Shown here: positions 1 to 31,737 of the stretch, one piece after another | Position numbering within the stretch: the stretch's first letter is position 1 | How the letters are laid out: each line of letters opens with the position of its first letter | From: a virus | Strand: one strand, 5' to 3' | DNA length: 31,737 nucleotides | IMG/VR virus record: IMGVR_UViG_3300038714_000108 | Coordinates: 1 to 31,737 of that record | Position numbers and translations under genes: made by a program | Notes under the pieces: generated by a model | What the model saw: the letters and a program-made list of their open reading frames with translations, nothing else | What the model was told of the DNA's origin: nothing | Databases searched by the model: none

Positions 1-1917
1 AATGGCAGGAGCAGCAATCAAAGCAAACGGCCCAGCAGCTGCTATCATTTTAGCACTAGCCTCAGCCATAGATGCGATAACGCTCCCAAATGCTTTACCC
101 TTATCTATTAAAAAACTTTTCAATGCAGTTGCTTTTTGAGAACCTAATTTTATTTGGTTTGTTGCATTTTCAAAAGCAACCTCCTGCATTTTCTTTTTAA
201 TAAATGCTTTTGTGTGTTCACCTAAAAATCTAATTGCACTATTTTTTACTGCTTCTTCAATTTTCTTTCGTCTTTCTGCACCATGCATTTCTGCATCTGT
301 TAGCGTATTCACAAATTGATCATGAGCAGCTAAAGTTGCATTATATAAAATGTTTTTATTTTCTAGTTCTTCTACAATTCTTTGTTTATCTTCCTCAGAT
401 AATGAATTTCTAATTTCATTAATCTGGCTAGAGGTTTCCTCTTCTAAAGCAACTTCTTCATCTTTAATAGATTTTTTAGCCTCTAAATTCGCCCTCAATG
501 AATCTAACTCTGACAACATTTGTTTTAATTTATTATCGCCTAGCTCCTCATCCATTTCTTTTTGAACTTTTGCTTGGATTTCAGCACCAGCAATTATGTC
601 ATCATACATTCCCTTAAATAAATCTCCAATAATATCAGCAGTCGCTTTATTTTGCAAAACAATTTTTTCATTCAATTTTGCAAATGCTTCAGGTTTAATG
701 CTATTAAATGGATCAAAAGCATCTTGAATTTTCAACCTAGTAACTGCCAATCTTGCGTCAATATTATCTAAAATCAATGAAATAATCTTTACCATTGTTT
801 TCATTATTGTGGGCAAATCATTTTTTACTGCTTTAGCTAAATTGTCAAATCCAATCTCACCTAATTTTGCAAATTCTTTATTTACTTCCTCAAGTTTTGG
901 CTGTATGATTGATATTATAACAGTTCCAATTTCTATCAATACAGACTGAATACTGTTTTTTAACATCGCCATTTGTTGATTAAACCCAGATGCCATTTTT
1001 TCAAACGCTTTTTCTGTTGCTCCAGCTGATTCTGTTGCAAAGGTATTTACATTTTTAGTAAGGGTGTCAAAATTATTAGCCATTGTTTGAATACCTAAAA
1101 TTGCCTCAACTCTAGGTATTATCTTTTTAAATGTGTCTGGGTCAAGACCTTGGAATTGTTTAACTGTTCCTACAAGGTCTAATGTCCCATCATCAAACCT
1201 TTTTATTTCAATTCCTGCCTCCTCCATTGCTTTTTTAGAACTATCTGCTGGAGATGTCAAAGAAACTAAGGCAGCTCGTAAAGCAGTTGTAGCTTGAGCA
1301 GTTGAGATACCACTTGCTGTAATGGTTGCCATTGCCGAGTTTACACCATCTAAACTAAGACCAGCTGATCTTGCAAAAGGTAATACTTGCCCCATGCTAG
1401 ATGCTAATTCGCTCATTGTGGTTTTACCTAGTCTAACAGTTGTAAATAGCGAATCAGAAACCTCGTTCACATCATCAGCTGTCAACCCTAATGCGTTGAG
1501 CGATGTCGTAAGTATGTCGGCAGCTTCAGCTGCACTTGTAACCCCACCAACTGCTAGTTTTGAAGTTGCTGATAATATCTTTGCAGAGTCAGCTGCGTTG
1601 CTAAACCCTGCAGATATGATGTCATATTTTGCTTTGCTTAAAGAGTCCAACGCCAATCCAGAAGCTTGTGAAACAAGTCTTAATTCCTTAGACATTTTTT
1701 GCAAATCTCTATTGGTAGAATTGTTCATTAGAGTTGAAATTTCTTTTAAATTCTTTTGAAAATCTCCTGCAAGTTTAGTCGATAGCGTAGCCACACCTGC
1801 CCCTGCTATTGCAGATGCTTTACTTATAAAGGCAACTGCACTACCTACTTTCTTTAAAGATGATGTGGTTTTCTTTGCCCCTTTTTCTGATATTTTTAAT
1901 ATTAAATTTTTAGCCAT
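1..1917 (-). CDS. Tail tape measure protein, 5' part (continues at 31737-31432)
   Basis: This gene encodes the tape measure protein that sets tail length and threads the tail tube. It starts at the ATG at 1915-1917, overlapping the upstream chaperone gene by 8 bases, and stays open for 639 codons to the window edge. Residues about 45-210 look like the TP901/PhageMin_Tail core, with alternating Ala/Ser/Gly-rich amphipathic helices. Hydrophobic helices follow near residues 300-380, and a charged coiled-coil stretch lies around 430-560. The frame leaves position 1 reading ...AAPAI and continues in frame at 31737. With the 9-base terminal duplication counted once, the protein is about 737 residues, short for the family. 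The assignment rests on composition, core motifs and position after the chaperones. Confidence 0.92.
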   Translation of the reverse strand, partial: MAKNLILKISEKGAKKTTSSLKKVGSAVAFISKASAIAGAGVATLSTKLAGDFQKNLKEISTLMNNSTNRDLQKMSKELRLVSQASGLALDSLSKAKYDIISAGFSNAADSAKILSATSKLAVGGVTSAAEAADILTTSLNALGLTADDVNEVSDSLFTTVRLGKTTMSELASSMGQVLPFARSAGLSLDGVNSAMATITASGISTAQATTALRAALVSLTSPADSSKKAMEEAGIEIKRFDDGTLDLVGTVKQFQGLDPDTFKKIIPRVEAILGIQTMANNFDTLTKNVNTFATESAGATEKAFEKMASGFNQQMAMLKNSIQSVLIEIGTVIISIIQPKLEEVNKEFAKLGEIGFDNLAKAVKNDLPTIMKTMVKIISLILDNIDARLAVTRLKIQDAFDPFNSIKPEAFAKLNEKIVLQNKATADIIGDLFKGMYDDIIAGAEIQAKVQKEMDEELGDNKLKQMLSELDSLRANLEAKKSIKDEEVALEEETSSQINEIRNSLSEEDKQRIVEELENKNILYNATLAAHDQFVNTLTDAEMHGAERRKKIEEAVKNSAIRFLGEHTKAFIKKKMQEVAFENATNQIKLGSQKATALKSFLIDKGKAFGSVIASMAEASAKMIAAAGPFALIAAPAI

Positions 1918-7259: not shown

Positions 7260-7396
7260 TATTTTTCCTTTTTTATGGTTAGTATTAAAGCCACTATTGA
7301 TAAAACACTTACCATGATCTGCAAGTATTCACTAATTTGGCTTATGTTTACAAAATAGTTTGTTGTGCTTATTGCAAAAACTCTTAAAGTGTCCAT
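7259..7396 (-). CDS. Small single-span membrane protein (45 aa)
   Basis: This short gene starts at ATG 7394-7396 (TGATG overlap with the upstream stop) and ends at TAA 7259-7261 (TAATG overlap with the next start). The product has one hydrophobic segment (MVSVLSIVALILTI) followed by a Lys-rich end (KKEK), suggesting an N-out, C-in span. It is coupled at both ends and lies two genes before the endolysin candidate, so a holin or accessory lysis role is plausible but not shown. Confidence 0.7.
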   Translation of the reverse strand: MDTLRVFAISTTNYFVNISQISEYLQIMVSVLSIVALILTIKKEK

Positions 7397-7677
7397 CACC
7401 ATTTTACCTTATTCGCCCAGTAAGCAGCCGACATTTTACCTTTAGCAATGTTTTTCCGATGCCTTGCCTTAAATGATTTGCGTTTAGCTTTCATTCTTGC
7501 AGATTCACCCCTTTTTGGTTTTCCTGCAGTTTTTGCCCCTTGTTGCCCAAACCTTATTAATTTTACTTTGTTACCACTTTTTGCTAAAACCATGTGAGAT
7601 TTAGTTTTGTGCCTTGGTGTTCTCTTGGGTTTATTGTACCCACTTAAACCAAATCTTTTTAATCTTGGGTCACGCAT
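7396..7677 (-). CDS. Small basic protein of a type common in marine phages
   Basis: This 93-residue protein is very basic (many Lys and Arg in KPKRGESARMKAKRKSFKARH). A central strand region (SHMVLAKSGNKVKLIRFGQQG) and the closing motif KGKMSAAYWANKVKW match a conserved protein I recall from marine phage genomes. The function is unknown. The charge suggests nucleic-acid binding or a packaged structural role, which is inference. The start is TAATG-coupled to the upstream holin-like gene. Confidence 0.82.
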   Translation of the reverse strand: MRDPRLKRFGLSGYNKPKRTPRHKTKSHMVLAKSGNKVKLIRFGQQGAKTAGKPKRGESARMKAKRKSFKARHRKNIAKGKMSAAYWANKVKW

Positions 7678-17076: not shown

Positions 17077-18279
17077 CTACCATTTTATTGTATTACCAAC
17101 CATACGCCTAATTGGAAACTTATAATCTATTGCATAACTACAAGCATCTAGACTGTGTGTTAGTTCTATGTTATCTTTAGCCAACCCACCTCTTTTATCT
17201 CTTTGGCATTGTTCTAAATCTTTTATTAAATATGTACAACTAGGGTCAACTGTCATTCCAATGTTACCATCAGCATCTTTTAATTTTCTATTAAGAGCAT
17301 TGAGCCTATCAATGTGACTGGGGTGTCTGTTTTTTACTCGTATAAAAAATCCATGATCTCTAAGTATCTGGTGATCAGAACGCCTTGACGTTGTTGACCT
17401 AGACTTACCAGCTGGGTCTGGATAGCACTCCACATTTGGTGCAATCTTTTTCATTTCCAAGCCTAGTTCATCTGTATTGCTATTTCTTAATCTAACCTCT
17501 TTATAAAAATGAATTGTGCCATCTGTGAACTCACTAGCCAATACAGCTGTATTATAATCAACATTATGGTCAACCCCCCACCATAATTTTTTAGAAACTT
17601 CCTTGGCTTTAACGCAATGTATATTTCTGTCAAAGTTCCAAGCAGCTCTGTTTCCTGTTGTTTCAAAACTCCCTTCAAATTCTTGCTTGAAGATAACTGC
17701 ATCCATTGTTCTTTTAGCAAGTTCTATTTCCTCTTTAGGTACAAATCCACCTTGTAGTGTAGTAAATTGCCATGATTTCCACTCTTTCTCTGATTGACCT
17801 TTTAAATATAAATCATACATAGCATCATAACCATTTGGTGTCCCAATAAACAAACACTCACCCTTTGTTGTTGCCAACATGGGCATAATGATTTCCTGCC
17901 ATACATGAGGTTTAATATAAGCCATTTCATCCATTACTGCCTTGGTCAGCTCTACTCCACGCAAGTTATTTTCATTGTCTGCACCTTTAACAGATAACTC
18001 TGCCCCATTATCAAACATGACACTCAATTCACTTTCATTTAATTTGGCATTATCGAATCCAGCAAACATTTGCCTTAGAACTGGGAATACAATCATCTTG
18101 CCTTGCCTATAAGTTGGGGTCACAAACCAACGTCTTTCATTGGGTTGAAAAACATCTTTTAATAAATACATTAAACTTAGAACTGTTTTACCCCACCTGC
18201 GACCTGCTACAATTACTTTGAATCTAGCTTTGTCTTTTAATATTTCTTTTCTTGTGGTATTAACAGTCCAGTTAATCAT
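17077..18279 (-). CDS. terL: Terminase large subunit
   Basis: This 400-residue packaging motor has an N-terminal ATPase and a C-terminal RNase H-like nuclease. Walker A is AGRRWGKT at 25-32, Walker B is KAVMDEMA at 113-120, and the coupling motif is around GTPNG at 146-150. The nuclease shows D237 in GVDHN, the conserved block PDPAGKSRSTTSRR near residue 292, and a final acidic residue D378 in HSLDACSYA. The enzyme translocates DNA through the portal and cuts it. The length is on the short side for the family but all motifs are present. ATG 18277-18279 overlaps the preceding stop as ATGA. Confidence 0.95.
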   Translation of the reverse strand: MINWTVNTTRKEILKDKARFKVIVAGRRWGKTVLSLMYLLKDVFQPNERRWFVTPTYRQGKMIVFPVLRQMFAGFDNAKLNESELSVMFDNGAELSVKGADNENNLRGVELTKAVMDEMAYIKPHVWQEIIMPMLATTKGECLFIGTPNGYDAMYDLYLKGQSEKEWKSWQFTTLQGGFVPKEEIELAKRTMDAVIFKQEFEGSFETTGNRAAWNFDRNIHCVKAKEVSKKLWWGVDHNVDYNTAVLASEFTDGTIHFYKEVRLRNSNTDELGLEMKKIAPNVECYPDPAGKSRSTTSRRSDHQILRDHGFFIRVKNRHPSHIDRLNALNRKLKDADGNIGMTVDPSCTYLIKDLEQCQRDKRGGLAKDNIELTHSLDACSYAIDYKFPIRRMVGNTIKW

Positions 18280-18467
18280 CCAAACACTCTTTTAAATAAT
18301 GCTTTAGGAACTTTTTTCCCTTGTTTGTAAAGCCTTTGCATCTTTGCTATGTCTCTGGCTCTTTGAGTACGTTTAGCACCCTTTGTACCAGTAAGATATT
18401 TTTTAGGAACTGTTTTATATGTTTTATCTTTAGCTACTCGCCTATTCATTTTGCGTTTCTTTCTCAT
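18276..18467 (-). CDS. Very basic small protein
   Basis: This 63-residue protein is about 40 percent Lys plus Arg (MRKKRKMNRRVAKDKTYKTV...RARDIAKMQRLYKQGKKVPKAL). It overlaps the terminase large-subunit gene by 4 bases and the upstream basic-protein gene by 4. The function is unknown. Position and charge suggest DNA binding during packaging or a small structural role. Confidence 0.75.
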   Translation of the reverse strand: MRKKRKMNRRVAKDKTYKTVPKKYLTGTKGAKRTQRARDIAKMQRLYKQGKKVPKALFKRVFG

Positions 18468-18727
18468 TTTTTACGCCTACGCTTACGCTCACGCCTTGCT
18501 AAGATTGGATCATGTTTTATTCTTTTTTGACCCTTTACTATCTTTATAAATGAATTTACTCTAGCAATTCCCCAACTACTAGGTGTCATCCCTTTCCTTG
18601 TGCCACTACTAACAGCTGCACCTAGACCCCTCCTGTAAACTTTCATTAATGTTGATCTAGGTATTTTGTTTTTTCTGGCTAATGCACCAATCCTAGTTGC
18701 CACAGATTTTCTTTTTTTAGCCATCAT
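18464..18727 (-). CDS. Small basic protein, DUF5824-like pattern
   Basis: This 87-residue basic protein has a central motif, VYRRGLGAAVSSGTRKGMTPSSWGIARVNSFIKIV. It recalls a small phage domain in which a YRRGxGA...SSGxR...xxxWxxARVxSF pattern is conserved (DUF5824, from memory). The ends are rich in Lys and Arg. It lies between the two terminase genes and overlaps the small-subunit gene by 11 bases. Two Met codons in a row (18727, 18724) are possible starts. Confidence 0.75.
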   Translation of the reverse strand: MMAKKRKSVATRIGALARKNKIPRSTLMKVYRRGLGAAVSSGTRKGMTPSSWGIARVNSFIKIVKGQKRIKHDPILARRERKRRRKK

Positions 18728-19058
18728 CTATTACCATTACTTGTATTGGTTCAGATTTAGTTGTTCTTTCTTGACGTTCTACTGCTCTACCCTCTAACCT
18801 TTCAATAATCATAGACATAGCTTTTAAATCACCTCTTTCAGCTAATTGAAACAACTTAGAGACTATTATCTCACGCCTTTCCTTATCGCCTAACTTGGTG
18901 TAGCTAAACTCTTTTATTAGATCAGTATAAGCATTACGCCTACCATTAGGGTTACCAGACTCGCCTTTTTTCCATCTATTACCAAGCGTATTACCTTTTT
19001 CAAAGTCTCCATTGGCTTTATGATTTGGGCGTTTGTTTTGCGTTTGTTTTTCAGTCAT
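18717..19058 (-). CDS. Terminase small subunit candidate (DUF5681-like)
   Basis: This 113-residue protein starts at ATG 19056-19058; an upstream TTG would add two residues. The N-terminal part contains GNRWKKGESGNPNGRR, the hallmark of the DUF5681 family often found before terminase large subunits. It is followed by a helical DNA-binding-like region (YTDLIKEFSYTKLGDKERREIIVSKLFQLAERGDLKAMSMIIERLEGR) and an acidic tail. It would recognise the packaging site and load the large subunit. Small-subunit identity is inferred from the motif and neighbourhood. Confidence 0.72.
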   Translation of the reverse strand: MTEKQTQNKRPNHKANGDFEKGNTLGNRWKKGESGNPNGRRNAYTDLIKEFSYTKLGDKERREIIVSKLFQLAERGDLKAMSMIIERLEGRAVERQERTTKSEPIQVMVIDDG

Positions 19059-19230
19059 GTTCAACTAAACCCATTGAAAACGCTTTATTTATTTTAGTAA
19101 TTAACTGTTTAACTTTTTCTGTGTCTATTTCATAAACATCAAACTCTAATCTAAAGTTACCAGTTGTTTTAAGGTTTTTGATTCCAACTAATTCCGTTGT
19201 TAATGCAATACCTCTATTTTCTTTTGACAC
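19051..19230 (-). CDS. Small protein with GTG start (59 aa)
   Basis: This gene fills part of what would otherwise be a gap. The frame opens at GTG 19228-19230, just after an in-frame TAA, and ends at TGA 19051-19053, overlapping the terminase small-subunit start by 8 bases. The product (SKENRGIALTTELVGIKNLK..., then FRLEFDVYEIDTEKVKQLI, then INKAFSMGLVEHD) has a clear beta-beta-alpha pattern and normal composition. It overlaps the preceding 30-residue gene by 17 bases. Function unknown. Confidence 0.6.
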   Translation of the reverse strand: MSKENRGIALTTELVGIKNLKTTGNFRLEFDVYEIDTEKVKQLITKINKAFSMGLVEHD

Positions 19231-19380: not shown

Positions 19381-20001
19381 TTATAACCATTCCTTTACAA
19401 TCCCCAAGTCTATACAATCCATTAGGAAAATATGTTCATTGCTTGTGTCTAGGTCTTTTTTACTTCTAGCCTTTACCATCTCCATGTAGGATTTATTTGT
19501 TGGTGTCCTGTCTCCATCAAAAAACCTCATGTCAAAAACAATTTTATCTGGAGTGTCGTATTTCTTTTTACCATCTACTAGCATTTTGTATTTTACTTTT
19601 GTTTTTAAATCCCAATAGCCATTTTTAACCATCTTCCAAGTATTGCCTAAACGAGTCATGTTTGATAAGTAGTAATACATTCCTGCCAATTCCATTTCAT
19701 TGTTTATTTTTACATTTGCCAACTTCCTTTCATAAAGACTTGGCACACCCTCTAAGACATCAATACGCTTTATAGTTTTTTCATCAACCTCATAAATCTC
19801 CCCATATACACAATGATTTTTAGCTGGGATCATGTAGGGAAAACCATGCCCAAAATCAACTAAGGCATGGTGTTTTAGTTTGTAGTGTTGTAAAAATGTA
19901 GCCTCTTTTCTTGAAAGGGATTTGCCATTTCTTACCTTTTGTAAGTAACTATAATGATTTACCCCTCCCTTTTTTAATGTTCCATAAACAAATAATTTCA
20001 T
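19381..20001 (-). CDS. AIG2/GGCT-like gamma-glutamyl cyclotransferase with C-terminal extension
   Basis: This 206-residue protein begins with MKLFVYGTLKKG, the glycine-rich binding loop of AIG2/GGCT-like cyclotransferases. VYGEIYEVD is at 65-73 and the conserved VLEG at 82-85, where E84 is the likely catalytic acid. Such enzymes convert gamma-glutamyl amines to 5-oxoproline plus the free amine. After about residue 110 there is a tail without the usual family pattern (MRFFDGDRTPTNKSYMEMVKARSKKD...). The gene is joined to the upstream amidotransferase as TAATG, so the cyclotransferase is made with the amidoligase and amidotransferase. Here it probably trims a gamma-glutamyl group from the module's product, or protects an intermediate; this is inferred. 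Confidence 0.82.
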   Translation of the reverse strand: MKLFVYGTLKKGGVNHYSYLQKVRNGKSLSRKEATFLQHYKLKHHALVDFGHGFPYMIPAKNHCVYGEIYEVDEKTIKRIDVLEGVPSLYERKLANVKINNEMELAGMYYYLSNMTRLGNTWKMVKNGYWDLKTKVKYKMLVDGKKKYDTPDKIVFDMRFFDGDRTPTNKSYMEMVKARSKKDLDTSNEHIFLMDCIDLGIVKEWL

Positions 20002-20930
20002 TATCTAACCTTTTTGATTGTTGAGCCATCATTGGCTTTTATTTTTTTAAATAAACTCATTTGATCCTTAAAAGAAAACCTTGGTACAAAGTTTTTAATT
20101 GTATGATCATAATTTTTAACAACTTTATTTACATGGGGGGTTTTTTCATACGCTCCAATGCTAGAATTAAACTTGTAATGTTTCCTTACGAATGGTTTTT
20201 GAAACTTGATTGTTTTTGTTCTAATCTTAAAAGTTGATGTATTGACCCTTAACATAGTGTTTGGTTTTATGTCTATTGGCTCTATTTTGCCCCAGGCTCC
20301 TGCTTTTATTATTTGTTGGGTGCTACCATAGGCATAAAGATCAAACCTCGGAACATAAACCATTTCAAGAGGGTTGTTACCTTTGATCATGTAAATGTAC
20401 TCTGGATACTCTACATCAGCCCAAACAATACTCACCCTACCTCTAACCTTTGGCAGTCTATTCAATGCAAAGTCTTTAATGTCTTTTGATGTTTCATATA
20501 ATCTGAATATTGCCTCACTATCTACCTCAGCAAATCTAGTCATCTCATATTTCTCAAATAACTCTTTATGATTATGGATTGACCCATTGTGAGTACCAAT
20601 GGTATTACCTGCCCTAATAGGATGATTATTCTTGTTGATTGATGGTTTACCAAGGGTTGCATATCTAGTGTGACCCATTAAACAAGTGATGTCATTGTAA
20701 ACTAAATCAAGACACTCCTGAGCATTGCTATCTTCTAAGAAACTATAAGCATTTTTAGGTTTCTTGCAAATTGTAAAATCACCTCTCTTGTCAATTAAAG
20801 CAAAACCAGTAGCATGACCACCCCTAGTATCAGCCTCTATTAGCATTTCTTCAAAACTGTTAGTAATGAGAGATAGGTCATTTTTAGACCTATCCCCATT
20901 TTTTAAAATTACTCCAGCTAATCCACACAT
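20001..20930 (-). CDS. Class II (Ntn) glutamine amidotransferase
   Basis: This 309-residue enzyme has Cys2 immediately after Met, the N-terminal nucleophile of class II amidotransferases. Family motifs follow: RGGHATGFAL at 36-45, GHTRYAT at 86-92, NNHP at 101-104, GTHNGSIHNH at 112-121 and DSEA at 137-140. It hydrolyses glutamine to glutamate and ammonia. It lacks the sugar isomerase or synthetase domain of GlmS or AsnB; the last 100 residues are basic and unfamiliar. The acceptor should therefore come from a partner, and the amidoligase encoded one base upstream is the obvious candidate. GGAGGAA in the last amidoligase codons is its ribosome binding site. Confidence 0.9.
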   Translation of the reverse strand: MCGLAGVILKNGDRSKNDLSLITNSFEEMLIEADTRGGHATGFALIDKRGDFTICKKPKNAYSFLEDSNAQECLDLVYNDITCLMGHTRYATLGKPSINKNNHPIRAGNTIGTHNGSIHNHKELFEKYEMTRFAEVDSEAIFRLYETSKDIKDFALNRLPKVRGRVSIVWADVEYPEYIYMIKGNNPLEMVYVPRFDLYAYGSTQQIIKAGAWGKIEPIDIKPNTMLRVNTSTFKIRTKTIKFQKPFVRKHYKFNSSIGAYEKTPHVNKVVKNYDHTIKNFVPRFSFKDQMSLFKKIKANDGSTIKKVR

Positions 20931-20931
20931 T

Positions 20932-21945
20932 TTAAATTTCCTCCATGTTTCTTGTTATTGTTCTATATAAACCACTTCTTGATCTTGAAAGATTCATTGA
21001 TCCTGTTGTCATTGCTTTAAATCTCTCACATATTGTTTTGTTCGCAGTTTTCACATCATGACATTGATTCTTGTGACCAATGAAACCAATAGCCTTGCGA
21101 AAATGAAAAAGACCATGCTCATTTGTTTGAACTTTTGTAAAACTAACGCTTTTTCTATTGATTGAACTTGTTATGATAAGTTGTGTTAGTACTGTCCACG
21201 CCCAGATTTTATCAAAGTTGATTGATCCTTGATGATAGCGAAATTCAACTGAACCTCTTGTCCAAATGTTGTGAAAATTTAATCCACAATATCTAGTGCT
21301 TTGAGTGATGCTTGGAGGAGAACTGCTATCCTGCATATACTTTCTGTAAGTATCATCCTTAATATTACTTTTAATTAAATCGCTAACCTCTTTGTTACTT
21401 CTTATTACAAAATTATTTAGCTTTGCCATTACCAACCTTACTGGTCTTGTCCAATATGATCCATTAACTTGCATAAGTCTTGATGGAGAAACTAATCTGT
21501 AAATGATATGTTCAAATTTTGCGACCAACTTAATTACATTTAGCAAATATTTTTCCACAACTTCCTTACTTTTTAGCATAACATCTGTAACATCATGATG
21601 CACATGAAGACCACAAGACTTATTAACTTTGCAACCTATTTGATTTAACACTTTGCAAACTGTTTTTAGTTGTCTTTTTCCCTCTTGACCATATAATTTT
21701 GGTGAAACTAATTCATTTCCACCATAAAAACCTGTTTGACCAATAACTGTACTATCTGTTGTCATCACCCAACTATCAGTTCTTCTGTTTCCTCTTGATG
21801 TCCAACCTGTATGGTTAACATTGATTCTGGCAGCTCTTAAAGCACTTACTATGTCATGTCTTCTTACAGGTGAAATAAACTCAATTTCTATTCCAAATGC
21901 TAAAAATTGATTAAATCTGCCTTTGATTGATTGAAAAATATTCAT
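20932..21945 (-). CDS. Glutamine-synthetase-like amidoligase (Amidoligase_2)
   Basis: This 337-residue protein belongs to the COOH-NH2 ligases with a glutamine-synthetase-like fold. The motifs are GIEIEF at 18-23 (metal-binding glutamates), NELVSPKL at 77-84, CGLHVHHD at 111-118, GLNFHNIW at 221-228 and SVEFRYHQGS at 232-241. Family members use ATP to join a carboxylate to an amine. The substrate is unknown. The gene leads a cassette with a glutamine amidotransferase and a cyclotransferase, spaced by one base and by a one-base overlap. ATG 21943-21945 has TGGAG upstream and a 180-base leader in front. Confidence 0.88.
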   Translation of the reverse strand: MNIFQSIKGRFNQFLAFGIEIEFISPVRRHDIVSALRAARINVNHTGWTSRGNRRTDSWVMTTDSTVIGQTGFYGGNELVSPKLYGQEGKRQLKTVCKVLNQIGCKVNKSCGLHVHHDVTDVMLKSKEVVEKYLLNVIKLVAKFEHIIYRLVSPSRLMQVNGSYWTRPVRLVMAKLNNFVIRSNKEVSDLIKSNIKDDTYRKYMQDSSSPPSITQSTRYCGLNFHNIWTRGSVEFRYHQGSINFDKIWAWTVLTQLIITSSINRKSVSFTKVQTNEHGLFHFRKAIGFIGHKNQCHDVKTANKTICERFKAMTTGSMNLSRSRSGLYRTITRNMEEI

Positions 21946-22126: not shown

Positions 22127-22954
22127 TTATAATTTTATTAGTTTCATTCCATAATTATTTACTTGGTCTTTTATTTTCAATCCTTTTTTTAATTTTAATT
22201 TATTTACTTTAAATGGTTTATAGTTTACTTGGTGTTGCCACCTGTCCCACTTCCAGATTGTAGTTACTACGTCTGGATGTTGTTCCTCAAGCGATTTAGA
22301 CATTTTTAATCTACCATCTTCTATTTCATATAATGTTTCTGTGTTGCCCCCTCCCATAGTCATTGTAGCTGTTTTATCGCCACAAAAAGCATTAAACAAA
22401 ATAGTACAGTCACCATCTTTTAAAATTCGCAATGATAAATCTGTGTCCTCATTGTAACGCCCTCGCCACCTATGTTTAATCTGATTTGATAACAATATCA
22501 TTGAGTAAATGCGATCATTTAAATAAAATGGGGGTAATCTTTTTCTAGGAATTGCAAATGTCATATAATTCAAACCTGCCATTGTTACGTTTTCATAGCG
22601 ATCTACAAATTTTTCAATAATCCTAAAAATAGTACCACTGCTAATATGCCATCTAACATTGTTATTCAATCTATAAAAATTTTGAATATTATCATCAAAT
22701 ATCCAATGCCTCTTTGCTCCAATATTAATACTATGCTCCCAGACAAAATTTCTTTTTGGAACTCCCCCAACTCCTAAATCTTCAAATGGTGTCACAATTA
22801 ACTTAGTTGGATCAATTACTTTTGAATATTGATCATATTCATTTGGGTAAATTACCATTTTATATGGAACGCCTAATTTTTCAAAACAATTAGCTGTTTT
22901 TGGATTTTGCCATCTACCTTTAGAAATAATATATACTGGATATTTAGGATTCAT
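22127..22954 (-). CDS. TET-associated glycosyltransferase-like protein (TAGT)
   Basis: This 275-residue protein starts at ATG 22952-22954; GTG one codon earlier is possible. It opens with YPVYIISKGR and has HWIFDDNI at 83-90 (a DDN variant of the nucleotide-sugar metal site), RWRGRYNEDTDLSLR at 162-176 and GGGNT at 201-205. These match the phage TET/JBP-associated glycosyltransferase family, predicted and in some cases shown to glycosylate hydroxymethylated bases in phage DNA. No TET/JBP oxygenase or hydroxymethylase is seen in this genome, so its acceptor is unclear. It is TGATG-coupled to a small upstream partner. Confidence 0.8.
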   Translation of the reverse strand: MNPKYPVYIISKGRWQNPKTANCFEKLGVPYKMVIYPNEYDQYSKVIDPTKLIVTPFEDLGVGGVPKRNFVWEHSINIGAKRHWIFDDNIQNFYRLNNNVRWHISSGTIFRIIEKFVDRYENVTMAGLNYMTFAIPRKRLPPFYLNDRIYSMILLSNQIKHRWRGRYNEDTDLSLRILKDGDCTILFNAFCGDKTATMTMGGGNTETLYEIEDGRLKMSKSLEEQHPDVVTTIWKWDRWQHQVNYKPFKVNKLKLKKGLKIKDQVNNYGMKLIKL

Positions 22955-23217
22955 CACTCCTCCTCATCTATATATAAATAATCTATTGGTTTAAATGTTT
23001 TTTTAGGTAAATGAATATAGATTGTTTGATCAGTTATAGTTTGGCTAATTAGATTAGCGAAATCATCCATGTCTTTTTTTGTTGCAAAATGAACTTTTAT
23101 AGACTTGTATGGCTCTATATCTTTATTTACAAATTCTGGCATATCTTTCCAATGATCTTTCCACCAGTTAAGATTTTCAATATCGCCAAATAAATTTTCT
23201 TGATTTTCCTTAGACAT
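22954..23217 (-). CDS. Small conserved-looking phage protein coupled to the TAGT gene
   Basis: This 87-residue acidic protein has the pattern WWKDHWKDMPEFVNKD followed by YKSIKVHFATKKDMDDFANL and ISQTITDQTIYIHLP. I recognise this as a recurrent phage protein of unknown function (W..HW..MPEF...vhF...ed...Fa.li.Q.it). The ending DEEE comes from GAG codons that form the ribosome binding site of the TAGT gene. Coupling suggests a joint role with the glycosyltransferase. The ATG is preceded by AGGAGG, made from the final Arg-Arg codons of the preceding gene. Confidence 0.75.
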   Translation of the reverse strand: MSKENQENLFGDIENLNWWKDHWKDMPEFVNKDIEPYKSIKVHFATKKDMDDFANLISQTITDQTIYIHLPKKTFKPIDYLYIDEEE

Positions 23218-23219
23218 TT

Positions 23220-23480
23220 TTACCTCCTACACTCATTACAAATTTTTCTTTTTTTACCTATTGTTGGCACAATGTTTTTAGGGTAATTGACGTATTTTCT
23301 AACATCAACCCAATAAGGGACATCGCTCCAAACCATTTCACATTGTTTGCAATAAAAAATAGTATTATCTAATGAGTATTGTGTTTTTTTGTATTCTTTC
23401 CTTTGTGAACTGTTTTTGTTCCTTTCGTCAGTTTTTCTTAAAATATAATTTATAATATGCTCAGATTTTTTCTGGGACAT
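23220..23480 (-). CDS. Small zinc-ribbon protein
   Basis: The chosen start is ATG 23478-23480, with AGAG at -10 to -7, giving 86 residues; ATG 23505-23507 would add nine. Two CxxC pairs (YCKQCE and KICNECRR) about 40 residues apart form a zinc ribbon, after a basic N-terminal helix (KSEHIINYILRKTDERNKN). A DNA or RNA-binding role is likely but unproven. It overlaps the end of the replisome-organizer gene by about 20 bases. Confidence 0.7.
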   Translation of the reverse strand: MSQKKSEHIINYILRKTDERNKNSSQRKEYKKTQYSLDNTIFYCKQCEMVWSDVPYWVDVRKYVNYPKNIVPTIGKKRKICNECRR

Positions 23481-24225
23481 ACTCCACTCTGCAACAACTT
23501 GAACCATCTTTTAATTGCCATTTATTAGCTGGCATCTCTCTTTTGCCACACTTAGAACAAAATGCTTTAAATAAACCAGTTGGATATTTATGAAATTTTG
23601 ACTCAAAGGATTTTTCTTGTTTTTTTCCTGTCTTTCCCCATTCTAAATTGTTGTCACGCCACTTGATTAATCTTCTTTTTACATCAAAAGTTTTTTGCAT
23701 TTCAAATTTTAACTTTTTCCCATTCTCATTTGATTCAGTCCAATAATAAACAAAGTTGTTTATTTGCTCACTTGATATGTTTTCAACCTCTTTTGCTTTT
23801 TTTTTTACAATATCAGCAAAATCAATCTCCCTTTCTTCTTTGCTTTTAACCTTTATTTTAACCTTATCTTTATCTTTAAGGGTATTTGATACCCTATGCA
23901 AACCCTTTTCAGTTAATCTTTTTAATACACTCAAATGTGGTTTACTATTTTCCTTCAATTCACCATATTGAAAATCAATAAATGATGGTATAAAGTATTG
24001 ATCCTCGCCCTCAATATATTTCATTTTAGATGTGATCTCTTCTGGTAGTTCCTCAAAAGAAACATAATCCCCAATGAAAAACTCAGATGCCTCCCAATCT
24101 GCATCCCAAATTCCAGCATGATCACATCTTGTTAATAAGTAAATCCAGATCAATTTATTTTTAGGGGTTAACCTCCTGAACCAAGCCTTATCCCAGATTT
24201 TAGTATCAATGAACCTTTTAGCCAT
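23461..24225 (-). CDS. Replisome organizer / replication initiation-like protein
   Basis: This is a 254-residue protein. Residues 1-55 (RFIDTKIWDKAWFRRLTPKNKLIWIYLLTRCDHAGIWDADWE) match the N-terminal winged-helix domain of phage replication initiator/replisome organizer proteins. A Lys/Glu-rich linker lies at about 115-150, followed by a helical DnaD-like segment ending in RLIKWRDNNLEWGK. The C-terminus carries a metal site (C223, C226, C244, C245). It would bind the origin and load host replication proteins. No phage helicase or polymerase is present. GGAGG from the end of the small upstream gene is its ribosome binding site. Confidence 0.72.
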   Translation of the reverse strand: MAKRFIDTKIWDKAWFRRLTPKNKLIWIYLLTRCDHAGIWDADWEASEFFIGDYVSFEELPEEITSKMKYIEGEDQYFIPSFIDFQYGELKENSKPHLSVLKRLTEKGLHRVSNTLKDKDKVKIKVKSKEEREIDFADIVKKKAKEVENISSEQINNFVYYWTESNENGKKLKFEMQKTFDVKRRLIKWRDNNLEWGKTGKKQEKSFESKFHKYPTGLFKAFCSKCGKREMPANKWQLKDGSSCCRVEYVPEKI

Positions 24226-29222: not shown

Positions 29223-31432
29223 TATATCTCTCTAAATTTACATTTTAATTTGCCAATTTGCCTTGTAACGCTTATCACCATAAAATTTTTGCCAGACCAA
29301 CTTTGATCAAAAGCATCTATTGGCATAGAGTCAAACGCTACAAAATCCCCAACATCAATACCATAAAAAATTGGATTAACCACAGTTGCACTAACTTCAA
29401 TTTTTTGCTCCCCTAAAATTGAATTATAATAAGAAAACCAATCATCATTAACATTGCTAGTTGCAGATGTAGGAATATCATTTTCACTAGATGAATCCCC
29501 AACGTAAGCATCTAACCTAATTGTTTTTTTATTTTCGTTTGTGCCAACACCTAAATCACTTATTGCGGTAGAGTTGGTAGCTGAAACGCTTGTCATGTGT
29601 CCACTAATTGCTGGGTGTTTTCTATATTCAATGTCCATGCTAGTAATAATATTACTCATTTGAGTGAGGGAAATATTTAAATCATCAATGTCATTTTTTG
29701 TTAATGTATGATCTGTACTAATGCTATCTGGAATAAATATATATTCCCCAGCACCTTGTCCATTAAATCGGAAAATAAAACCCCCTTCAAATTGTAATTT
29801 CTCTAAAACTTTAATTAACTCAGTTGGTTCATTTACCCAGTACCTAATTCGCCAATCTTTTATGGAGTTTAAATTTGTGCCACTTCCCCAATTTGTAGGG
29901 GTGTTTGAATTTGAATAGCTTGTGAATCTATGCAATAAGTCCCTATGAGCCTCATGGATTTCTGTTATAGCTGAATTACTATTCCAACCATTGTCAACTA
30001 ATCCATCTGCTCCTGTGTAAACAAAATCTAAATCATCTAAAAATTTATAAGCGTCTGATTTGCTCCCACCATTAGTTGTGTTGCTAAAATCAAGTTCATT
30101 AACAGTTTCTATTACAACATCAAATAAATTAAAGGTAATATCTAAATTTCCATCTAAAGTTCCAGATTGCAAGGTCTGTAAAACTTCTAAATCAAAATCA
30201 GCACCCCAACCACTACTGCTTGATAAAAAATTTGTGTCTCTATCTGCTTGTGAAGAAACCAGTGCAACGCTTGAAATATCTGTATTTCCTGGACTTTCTT
30301 TTAGGGTTGTACTTGTTCCAGTTCCAGTAAAATTTAAATAACCCAAGGTTTCATCAGTACCAAATGTTTTATCAACTAATTTTACTCTAATTTGACCAGA
30401 GCCAGAAACCAAGGAAAGGCTCCCAGTCCCACTTAAAAAATAATGGAATTGCAAAAGAGATGGAAAGCCTTGTAATTGTGGCATCTTAAATTTTATTCGT
30501 CTACTTGTCCCATTTGTAAAATCTGCATCAAAAGTGAACTGAGTTGATGAACTGGTATCAACAGTTAATCCATTAAAGGCATTGTTGTTTGATTGCCAAC
30601 CAGTATCACTAGATATTCTTTCGCTTAATTTTGTTAATGTTTTTCTTGTCATTTTTTGATGAAATCTAACTGCGTAACCATCTCCATAAACTTCATTAGC
30701 CTCATCTACTGTGTTGTAAGTAGAACCATCAAGAGATAATGGAATAAATTTATCTACTGATTTATCATAGTAATGAGGGTAAGCATCTGAAGAAATACTT
30801 GTAATTCCAGTTAAAGCAAATATTATTTCTCCTCTTCTCTCTTGAATGGGAATAGGATAAAGAGTTTTCCTATTTCTAAAATCATCATCATCTGAACTTG
30901 TGCTTAATGAAACAGTTTCATGATTAGGAGTGTATGAACCATAAGCTATTGGAAAATAATTATTTTTATCAGTTTTTATTTGTGGTATCTCCACACCATC
31001 CCAAGGTTTTTGAGCGTTAATAGATAATTTAATTGTGTCTATTGTGTGAGATATGTTGACTAATTTTCCTGTATATACTAAAAAACAATCGCTTAAAGCA
31101 GTAACATCTTCTGGTTGAATGTAAATTTTAACTGTTCTATTTATATAGTCCCTAGTCCCTCCATAAATTTCCTCAGAAAAATTTTTATTTAAGTATAAAA
31201 AATTTGCGAGAGTAATTGAGACATTTCCTGTTTTAGCTTTGCTCGTTTTTAAATCAATGCTTTCTCTAATGCTTGGCTTGTTTAAAATGCTACCATGATA
31301 AAATACAGACTCTACTGTTGTATCATAAAAAGCAACTCCAGTAAAATTTCCACTACTACCATAATTTAATTGAAATAACCAGTTTTGTTTTATTGAGTGG
31401 TTTTTAAAAGAGTCTGGAAGAGTTAAAGCCAT
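29222..31432 (-). CDS. Tail hub / tip protein
   Basis: This 736-residue protein is encoded directly after the tape measure gene (TAATG overlap), the usual place of distal tail and hub proteins. The N-terminal part (FYHGSILNKPSIRESIDLKT, GNVSITLANFLYLNKNF, YINRTVKIYIQPEDV) is a beta-rich domain like those of other phage tip proteins. Middle residues about 290-440 form a polar beta domain. The C-terminal part (VEFIDPS-like IDVGDFVAFDSMPIDAF, KNFMVISVTRQIGKLKCKFRE) resembles hub proteins that hold the tip ring. It probably closes the tail tube and carries receptor-binding parts. Confidence 0.68.
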   Translation of the reverse strand: MALTLPDSFKNHSIKQNWLFQLNYGSSGNFTGVAFYDTTVESVFYHGSILNKPSIRESIDLKTSKAKTGNVSITLANFLYLNKNFSEEIYGGTRDYINRTVKIYIQPEDVTALSDCFLVYTGKLVNISHTIDTIKLSINAQKPWDGVEIPQIKTDKNNYFPIAYGSYTPNHETVSLSTSSDDDDFRNRKTLYPIPIQERRGEIIFALTGITSISSDAYPHYYDKSVDKFIPLSLDGSTYNTVDEANEVYGDGYAVRFHQKMTRKTLTKLSERISSDTGWQSNNNAFNGLTVDTSSSTQFTFDADFTNGTSRRIKFKMPQLQGFPSLLQFHYFLSGTGSLSLVSGSGQIRVKLVDKTFGTDETLGYLNFTGTGTSTTLKESPGNTDISSVALVSSQADRDTNFLSSSSGWGADFDLEVLQTLQSGTLDGNLDITFNLFDVVIETVNELDFSNTTNGGSKSDAYKFLDDLDFVYTGADGLVDNGWNSNSAITEIHEAHRDLLHRFTSYSNSNTPTNWGSGTNLNSIKDWRIRYWVNEPTELIKVLEKLQFEGGFIFRFNGQGAGEYIFIPDSISTDHTLTKNDIDDLNISLTQMSNIITSMDIEYRKHPAISGHMTSVSATNSTAISDLGVGTNENKKTIRLDAYVGDSSSENDIPTSATSNVNDDWFSYYNSILGEQKIEVSATVVNPIFYGIDVGDFVAFDSMPIDAFDQSWSGKNFMVISVTRQIGKLKCKFREI

Positions 31433-31737
31433 TATGCGAGATTTTGACTGATAGTTTTTTCAATCTCTGGAATAATAAAATCTTTCACATATTCATCATT
31501 AGTAATCGCCCCATTAAAATTAATAGTTATGCCACTCATTCCCCTTGCGAGGTTTTCCTGTTGTGATTGATTTAAAATTAATTCTCCAGGAGTCAACATG
31601 GCTGGGACTGTATCGCCTTGACCTCTGTTTGCTCCTGGAACAATACCACCATCTGCAAACCCCAAAGCACCTTGCCCAGATTCTATTTGGCTTTTTAATG
31701 CAGAGCCTAACGCACCAACAGCTGCGATAATGGCAGG
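31432..31737 (-). CDS. Tail tape measure protein, 3' part
   Basis: This is the C-terminal part of the gene that begins at 1917. The frame is open from the window edge to the TAA at 31432-31434. It contains GFADGGIVPG followed by GDTVPAMLTPGELILN, a C-terminal signature common in phage tape measure proteins. A TTG inside the frame could be mistaken for a start of a 77-residue gene, but the codons upstream of it remain open and coding-like to the window edge. The stop overlaps the next gene's start as TAATG. Confidence 0.9.
   Translation of the reverse strand, partial: PAIIAAVGALGSALKSQIESGQGALGFADGGIVPGANRGQGDTVPAMLTPGELILNQSQQENLARGMSGITINFNGAITNDEYVKDFIIPEIEKTISQNLA

Follow-up and report, generated by a model that had tools for sequence, protein, structure and literature searches.

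We examined the IMG/VR virus record IMGVR_UViG_3300038714_000108, a stretch of 31,737 bases (hereafter the window) whose source is described as a marine phage, and focused on three adjacent genes, here called the trio, which may form amides on modified DNA bases. A sequence-only reading of the window had noticed three consecutive minus-strand open reading frames (ORFs) at 19381-21945 and named them as an amidoligase, a class-II glutamine amidotransferase and a cyclotransferase. These coordinates are exact, and Pfam recovered all three families above its curated cut-offs; thus, the family assignments are not due to chance. The three genes are:

20932-21945, minus strand: amidoligase (Amidoligase_2, PF12224; Pfam 7.6e-26) with a modelled glutamine synthetase (GS) fold, 337 amino acids (aa), a predicted ATP-dependent carboxylate-amine ligase
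20001-20930, minus strand: stand-alone class-II, N-terminal nucleophile (Ntn) glutamine amidotransferase (GAT), 309 aa, with Cys2 (Pfam GATase_6 9.4e-16)
19381-20001, minus strand: AIG2/GGACT-type gamma-glutamylamine cyclotransferase (GGCT), 206 aa, with Glu84 (Pfam GGACT 2.7e-23)

The amidoligase and GAT genes are separated by 1 nt, the GAT stop and the GGCT start overlap by 1 nt, and a Shine-Dalgarno-like GGAG precedes both the amidoligase and the GAT. This spacing and these motifs make translational coupling of the trio plausible.

The catalytic residues, whose loss the sequence-only reading had named as fatal to its interpretation, are intact in all three proteins, Cys2 and Glu84 included (alignments of 21-23 sequences each). 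The amidoligase residues E20, E22, E78, H114, H116, R156, R218, N223, E234 and R236 were invariant among 23 phage sequences. A search of the Protein Data Bank (PDB) with the amidoligase sequence gave no match; the best fold matches of its model (pLDDT 87) were YbdK, glutamate-cysteine ligase and glutamine synthetases (Z 11-12), with the Dop/PafA pup enzymes also among them (Z 10-12 overall, Foldseek/VIA-align); most of these are ADP-forming carboxylate-amine ligases. Thus, the PF12224 match, the GS-type catalytic residues and, as modelled, the fold all place this protein in Amidoligase_2. The GAT starts MCG and keeps Cys2, Arg89, Asn115-Gly116 and Asp137, the pattern of class-II glutamine amidotransferases, and it matched the glutaminase domain of E. 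coli GlmS (1.5e-9). It had been described as lacking an acceptor domain, and the GATase domain alone was indeed recognised; the ~115 conserved residues after it belong to no family. The GGCT keeps the YGTL loop (Y6-L9) typical of GGACT/AIG2 proteins and Glu84, which aligned to E82 of human GGACT; it matched GGACT in the PDB at 1e-12, and its model (pLDDT 88) matched the human and mouse GGACT structures (1vkb/3juc). Its helical C-terminal extension (residues ~135-206; window 19381-19600) belongs to no known family and is conserved in aligned relatives, with V155, F161, D162, N169, Y172, M173 and R179 among the conserved residues.

The window amidoligase used alone as a query found no relatives, and an alignment query succeeded. 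The trio recurs in the same gene order in ~25 related contigs, in keeping with the co-occurrence that the sequence-only reading had called for; nine relatives were found in bacterial genomes, all distant. In the window, the trio lies upstream of the terminase in a cargo slot, the region between a conserved gene, g23461, and the DUF5681-large terminase (TerL) block. The slot borders and the remaining slot genes are:

18717-19064, minus strand: DUF5681 gene, the downstream slot border adjoining the terminase block (Pfam 7.8e-13; position the same in relatives)
22127-22957, minus strand: TAGT glycosyltransferase (PF20691), a predicted base-tagging 'handle' enzyme (Pfam 3.4e-37, phrog_842 1.9e-36)
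22954-23217, minus strand: C9, 87 aa, which accompanies TAGT and the trio in the slot (no significant Pfam family)
23461-24225, minus strand: g23461, a conserved early gene and the upstream slot border (hidden Markov model (HMM) matches in 77 loci)

Slot contigs were gathered by terminase similarity alone, not by slot content, and the DNA-modification genes in them were named via Pfam or NCBIfam. Such genes were present in 29 of 34 deduplicated complete slots (from a 37-slot census) and in 22 of the 27 slots free of the trio. The cargo types included a Tet_JBP dioxygenase with an aGPT-PPlase-like protein and a kinase-like protein; GTP cyclohydrolase with QueC, of the 7-deazaguanine pathway; C5- and N6/N4-type DNA methyltransferases; TAGT; a match to an amino acid:DNA transferase; and thymidylate-synthase (TS) homologs with dUTPase and dCMP deaminase. 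A handle gene, meaning TAGT, a TS homolog or the CmoX/CmoA pair described below, was found in 7/7 trio slots vs 6/27 trio-free slots (Fisher p=3.2e-4, which is indicative only because the grouping was chosen post hoc and the genomes are related). Five slots of the 37-slot census carry C9 (the window, L180, L185, L218 and L224), and each of them also has TAGT and the trio.

Two other kinds of slot cargo were seen in passing. The slot's TET/JBP-aGPT-kinase cassettes likewise include a class-II GAT; in L189 (3246-6200), L191 and L220, a TET/JBP dioxygenase, a 239-aa class-II GAT and aGPT-PPlase-like and kinase-like proteins form one cassette of the thymine-hypermodification type. A whole-record search for Tet_JBP gave no match even in controls and was not used as evidence of absence. 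In the pre-terminase slot of L173 (4784-7466) and L203, GTP cyclohydrolase and QueC stand together with a putative QueE and a possible DpdA that matches no Pfam family; this is likely a 7-deazaguanine DNA modification cargo.

The gene directly before the trio was visible in 20 slot contigs, a few of them near-duplicates, and in all 20 it was a base-tagging enzyme: TAGT in 12, a TS homolog in 4, CmoX-CmoA in 2 and an N6/N4-type methyltransferase in 2. TAGT, the next gene upstream of the trio in the window, is often accompanied by C9 and sometimes by an NDP-sugar epimerase. The window TAGT has the DD(N) and EDTD motifs of PF20691, with D88, D89 and E170-D173 invariant in 7 sequences, and is ~41-47% identical to TAGTs from large Aeromonas, Vibrio and Tenacibaculum phages. 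The N6/N4-type enzymes (L021:6952-7884 and L024:6988-7887) stand directly before the trio with no CmoA nearby; we mention, as speculation, that they could be amino-group carboxymethyltransferases.

The two CmoX-CmoA contigs are L020 and L025/L223. Their gene order is CmoX, CmoA, amidoligase, GAT and GGCT, with no AsnB-like gene; CmoX and CmoA lie at L020:6087-7884 and L223:4232-6051 in these small marine phages. The CmoA homolog, MT73, matched NCBIfam TIGR00740 at 3e-40, below the equivalog cut-off, and YecO/CmoA in the PDB at 8e-22 to 5e-19. The adjoining C5 methyltransferase carries SPPC and, in motif X, GRSV, with an arginine that aligns with R350 of CmoX vs an asparagine in ordinary enzymes; both features are present in L020 and in L025/L223. 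A CmoA homolog next to an arginine-bearing C5 methyltransferase led us to predict a natural carboxymethylcytosine pathway, which we later matched to a published system (PMC12783734). In Synechococcus phage S-B43, CmoX and CmoA were shown biochemically to make 5-carboxymethylcytosine (5cxmC), CmoA supplying carboxy-S-adenosylmethionine (Cx-SAM), and CmoY, an AsnB-like ligase, then amidates 5cxmC with glycine (Yang et al., Nat Commun December 2025, PMC12783734). Use of ammonia was proposed there for a second cluster of ligases, which carry a glutaminase domain. The words amidoligase, amidotransferase and cyclotransferase are absent from the main text of that paper. The divergent C5 methyltransferases of L026-L030 were considered as CmoX and rejected, as they carry GNAV, not GR.

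Using a five-sequence CmoX alignment as the query and disregarding the ligase, we retrieved 80 CmoX relatives; queries with just two CmoA sequences or one CmoX returned almost solely contigs already known. The arginine was present in 79/80, and within 5 kb of these 79 we found CmoA in 67, an AsnB-like gene in 31 and an amidoligase in 0. Among cultured phages, TurkishDelight has CmoX, an AsnB with a GAT domain and CmoA, and PaBG has CmoX, CmoA and AsnB. L068 (168-5166) is a mixed contig with both ligase types: a CmoX-type enzyme (GRAV) and an AsnB-like gene lie on one strand, and near them, on the opposite strand, is a distantly related amidoligase.

A glutamine-dependent amide ligase can be built in two ways, as an AsnB-like enzyme that includes a GAT domain or as a GS-fold ligase working with a separate GAT. 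Like CmoA-CmoX-CmoY of S-B43, the cassettes of the sister contigs L020 and L025 pair a base-tagging enzyme with a following ATP-dependent amide ligase, CmoA and CmoX standing before the trio. The ligases differ: CmoY is AsnB-like and AMP-forming, whereas the trio has a GS-fold ligase (ADP-forming by family), a separate glutaminase and a cyclotransferase. The window phage differs further in having TAGT in place of CmoA/CmoX. The same parallel is seen after the TS homologs, as TS homolog plus AsnB-like gene (L213, L217) corresponds to TS homolog plus trio (L226:5100-5795, L022:7182-7886, L110:4163-4858). In these last three, Asp replaces the dUMP-selecting Asn, which suggests dCMP as the substrate. 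This equivalence of the two ligase types, with the trio in a CmoY-like place after CmoX-CmoA and again after TS homologs, is our chief reason to propose that ammonia is transferred to a carboxylate on DNA.

Based on these comparisons, we propose that the trio forms an amide on a DNA-base tag with glutamine-derived ammonia and is a modular unit of a DNA hypermodification cassette; we put the probability of this at roughly 55%. In the first part of our model, TAGT in the window, or CmoX and CmoA, a TS homolog or an N6/N4 methyltransferase in the sister phages, would put a handle on a DNA base. The amidoligase would then activate a carboxylate with ATP, through an acyl phosphate and with release of ADP, and join it to ammonia freed from glutamine by the separate GAT. 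For instance, where CmoX and CmoA are present, 5-carboxymethylcytosine would be converted to 5-carbamoylmethylcytosine or a related amide. The GGACT-like enzyme may remove or edit gamma-glutamyl adducts as 5-oxoproline. The likely benefit would be phage DNA shielded from host nucleases. DNA as the substrate, a carboxylate as the acceptor, ammonia as the amine and the role of the cyclotransferase are all read from gene content and context. The sequence-only reading had already suggested an amide whose nitrogen comes from glutamine, and this appears right. That reading also listed DNA among the targets, with virion proteins and the host wall; it ranked the three equally and missed the TAGT neighbour, and the comparative evidence favours DNA in this phage group.

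Comparisons of closely related genomes bear on how tightly trio and handle are joined. L025 (CmoX-CmoA) and L218 (TAGT) share 99% identity in TerL and 96% in g23461, but only 52% in the amidoligase and 61% in the GAT. Handle, amidoligase and GAT thus differ together and appear to have been exchanged as a block, which supports coupling of handle and trio. Between L020 (CmoX-CmoA) and L018 (TAGT), TerL is 97% identical and the amidoligase and GAT 87%, so that the handle differs over a little-changed trio. This shows that the ligase is not specialised for one handle, which would fit either a common acceptor or independence of the two. A strict tie of the trio to 5cxmC was rejected, since most trio slots have TAGT and the amidoligase is 87% identical across handles.

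Several points besides the L020/L018 pair weigh against our proposal. TAGT, TS homologs and C5 methyltransferases were not found in the trio-bearing records L032, L033, L036 and L037 (30-34 kb), nor was a C5 methyltransferase found in Waltz, Ottawa or Pae-1; thus, the trio may have another, older role or unrecognised partners. Amidoligase-GGCT pairs without a GAT and amidoligase-GAT pairs without a GGCT both exist, which touches the role given to the cyclotransferase. The CmoX-CmoA-trio arrangement is known from two contigs, and cargo accumulation in one hot spot could yield part of the association. All of the support comes from sequence and model comparison.

The window phage itself poses a further difficulty of the same kind. 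HMMs that detect controls found no CmoA, CmoX-type C5 methyltransferase or AsnB-like CmoY in the window, a TS homolog was not found in the genome either, and the C5 methyltransferase family PF00145 was absent. In T6-like phages, TAGT is proposed to attach a second glucose to glucosyl-hydroxymethylcytosine (PMC13390438). Like T-even and Aeromonas phages, the window phage carries a TAGT, but no hydroxymethylase (TS homolog) was found in its 31.7-kb genome, so the TAGT acceptor must differ or be supplied otherwise. These absences come from a genome that is apparently complete. The two contig ends (window 1-1917 and 31432-31737) have 9 bases in common, the tape-measure frame continues across the joined ends, and the joined protein of 737 aa aligned over its full length, at 64%, with an ORF of 739 aa in a relative. 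For these reasons the window very probably represents the whole genome as a closed circle of ~31.7 kb, though the record is classed as linear.

As a gene set, the trio is already annotated in cultured phages; what the relatives newly add is its placement in the slot. Annotations of the trio, or of enlarged forms of it, exist for Arthrobacter phage Waltz, LUZ24-like phages and PSA-HP1. In Waltz (Laroyevirus), genes 94-96 are the same three families, adjacent and annotated; they differ in order (GGACT-amidoligase-GAT), the proteins are ~21-29% identical, and no DNA-modification gene was annotated in the 38.5 kb viewed. The phiEco32, LUZ24 and PSA-HP1 cassettes likewise cluster amidoligase, class-II GAT and cyclotransferase genes, enlarged in LUZ24-like phages by a COOH-NH2 ligase and an ATP-grasp-type gene; the window has no COOH-NH2 ligase, and its trio lies in a slot of DNA-modification genes.

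For these cassettes, Iyer et al. (2009) predicted that they modify peptidoglycan against superinfection, a prediction repeated in PMC5498523, PMC10580990 and PMC11945000; the link to the Aravind group's amidoligase work that the sequence-only reading drew is right. Applied to the window, amide or gamma-glutamyl groups would be added to or trimmed from peptidoglycan stem peptides and so block superinfection. The kind of reaction is established, since the ligase-glutaminase pair MurT/GatD amidates peptidoglycan glutamate (PMC3267633), and trio phages without a recognised DNA handle fit this account as well. In the literature on these cassettes we found no experimental test of the prediction. We consider it unlikely for the window phage. 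The COOH-NH2 ligase of the phiEco32 type (PF14395) is absent from its genome (in a search of ten records, Pae-1, the positive control, gave the only match), and the window ORFs scanned with Pfam included no ATP-grasp family, though Pfam scores even the LUZ24-type enzyme only weakly. Moreover, DNA-modification genes fill the slot, and no slot was seen to hold the trio without one.

It is also possible, with somewhat lower probability still, that the trio serves a free small-molecule pathway, in which the amidoligase would make a gamma-glutamyl amide of an amine, the GAT would give glutamate or ammonia, and the cyclotransferase would free the amine along with 5-oxoproline. Its product might influence host metabolism or serve the handle enzyme as a donor. 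BtrG deprotects similarly in butirosin synthesis. In Bacillus and Geobacillus phages and several viral contigs, the cyclotransferase and amidoligase occur as a pair with no GAT, which suits such a gamma-glutamyl cycle, as does the GAT-cyclotransferase fusion of phage C75C1. In that phage, a class-II GAT-like N-terminal part is fused to a GGACT domain (L007:6693-7589), with an amidoligase nearby. This pathway leaves the constant base-tagging company in the slot, and the CmoY-like place after CmoX-CmoA, unexplained. We regard as least probable that the trio is an independent module that merely shares a hot spot with DNA-modification modules. The 22 trio-free slots with DNA-modification genes mean that such company alone is expected, and the near-constant trio of L020 and L018 agrees with this; it does not account for the concentration of handle genes specifically in trio slots or for the joint change in L025 and L218. 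The interpretation offered by the sequence-only reading is, overall, partly supported.

Other features of the window have less bearing on the trio. The terminase and capsid are distantly related to homologs of Pelagibacter phages, among others, and no promoter or terminator signals exceeded the shuffled background. Small, very lysine/arginine-rich proteins are encoded at 18276-18727 and 7396-7677; one matches DUF5824, and they are possibly nucleic-acid binding.

In sum, many phages have had amidoligase, GAT and cyclotransferase genes annotated since 2009 under a single predicted function, wall modification; the cargo of the slot and the CmoX/CmoA connection now offer a specific alternative, for which the mass of the product can be predicted. 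In its widest form, to which we give slightly less than even odds, our proposal is that the trio represents a new class of DNA amide-forming system, made of a modular GS-fold ligase, a detached glutaminase and a cyclotransferase. It would couple to carboxymethyl-, glycosyl-, TS- and N6/N4-type tagging enzymes and could replace CmoY to give 5-carbamoylmethylcytosine, and at least some of the 'peptidoglycan-modification' cassettes would then be DNA hypermodification cassettes. The CmoX-CmoA-trio contigs apparently broaden the published 5cxmC system by adding a new ligase context. If our proposal is true, a second, unrelated ligase type joins the carboxymethylcytosine pathway, and phages combine tagging modules with amide-forming ones in varying pairs. 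These results suggest that the marine phages of this group carry DNA modifications as yet undescribed.

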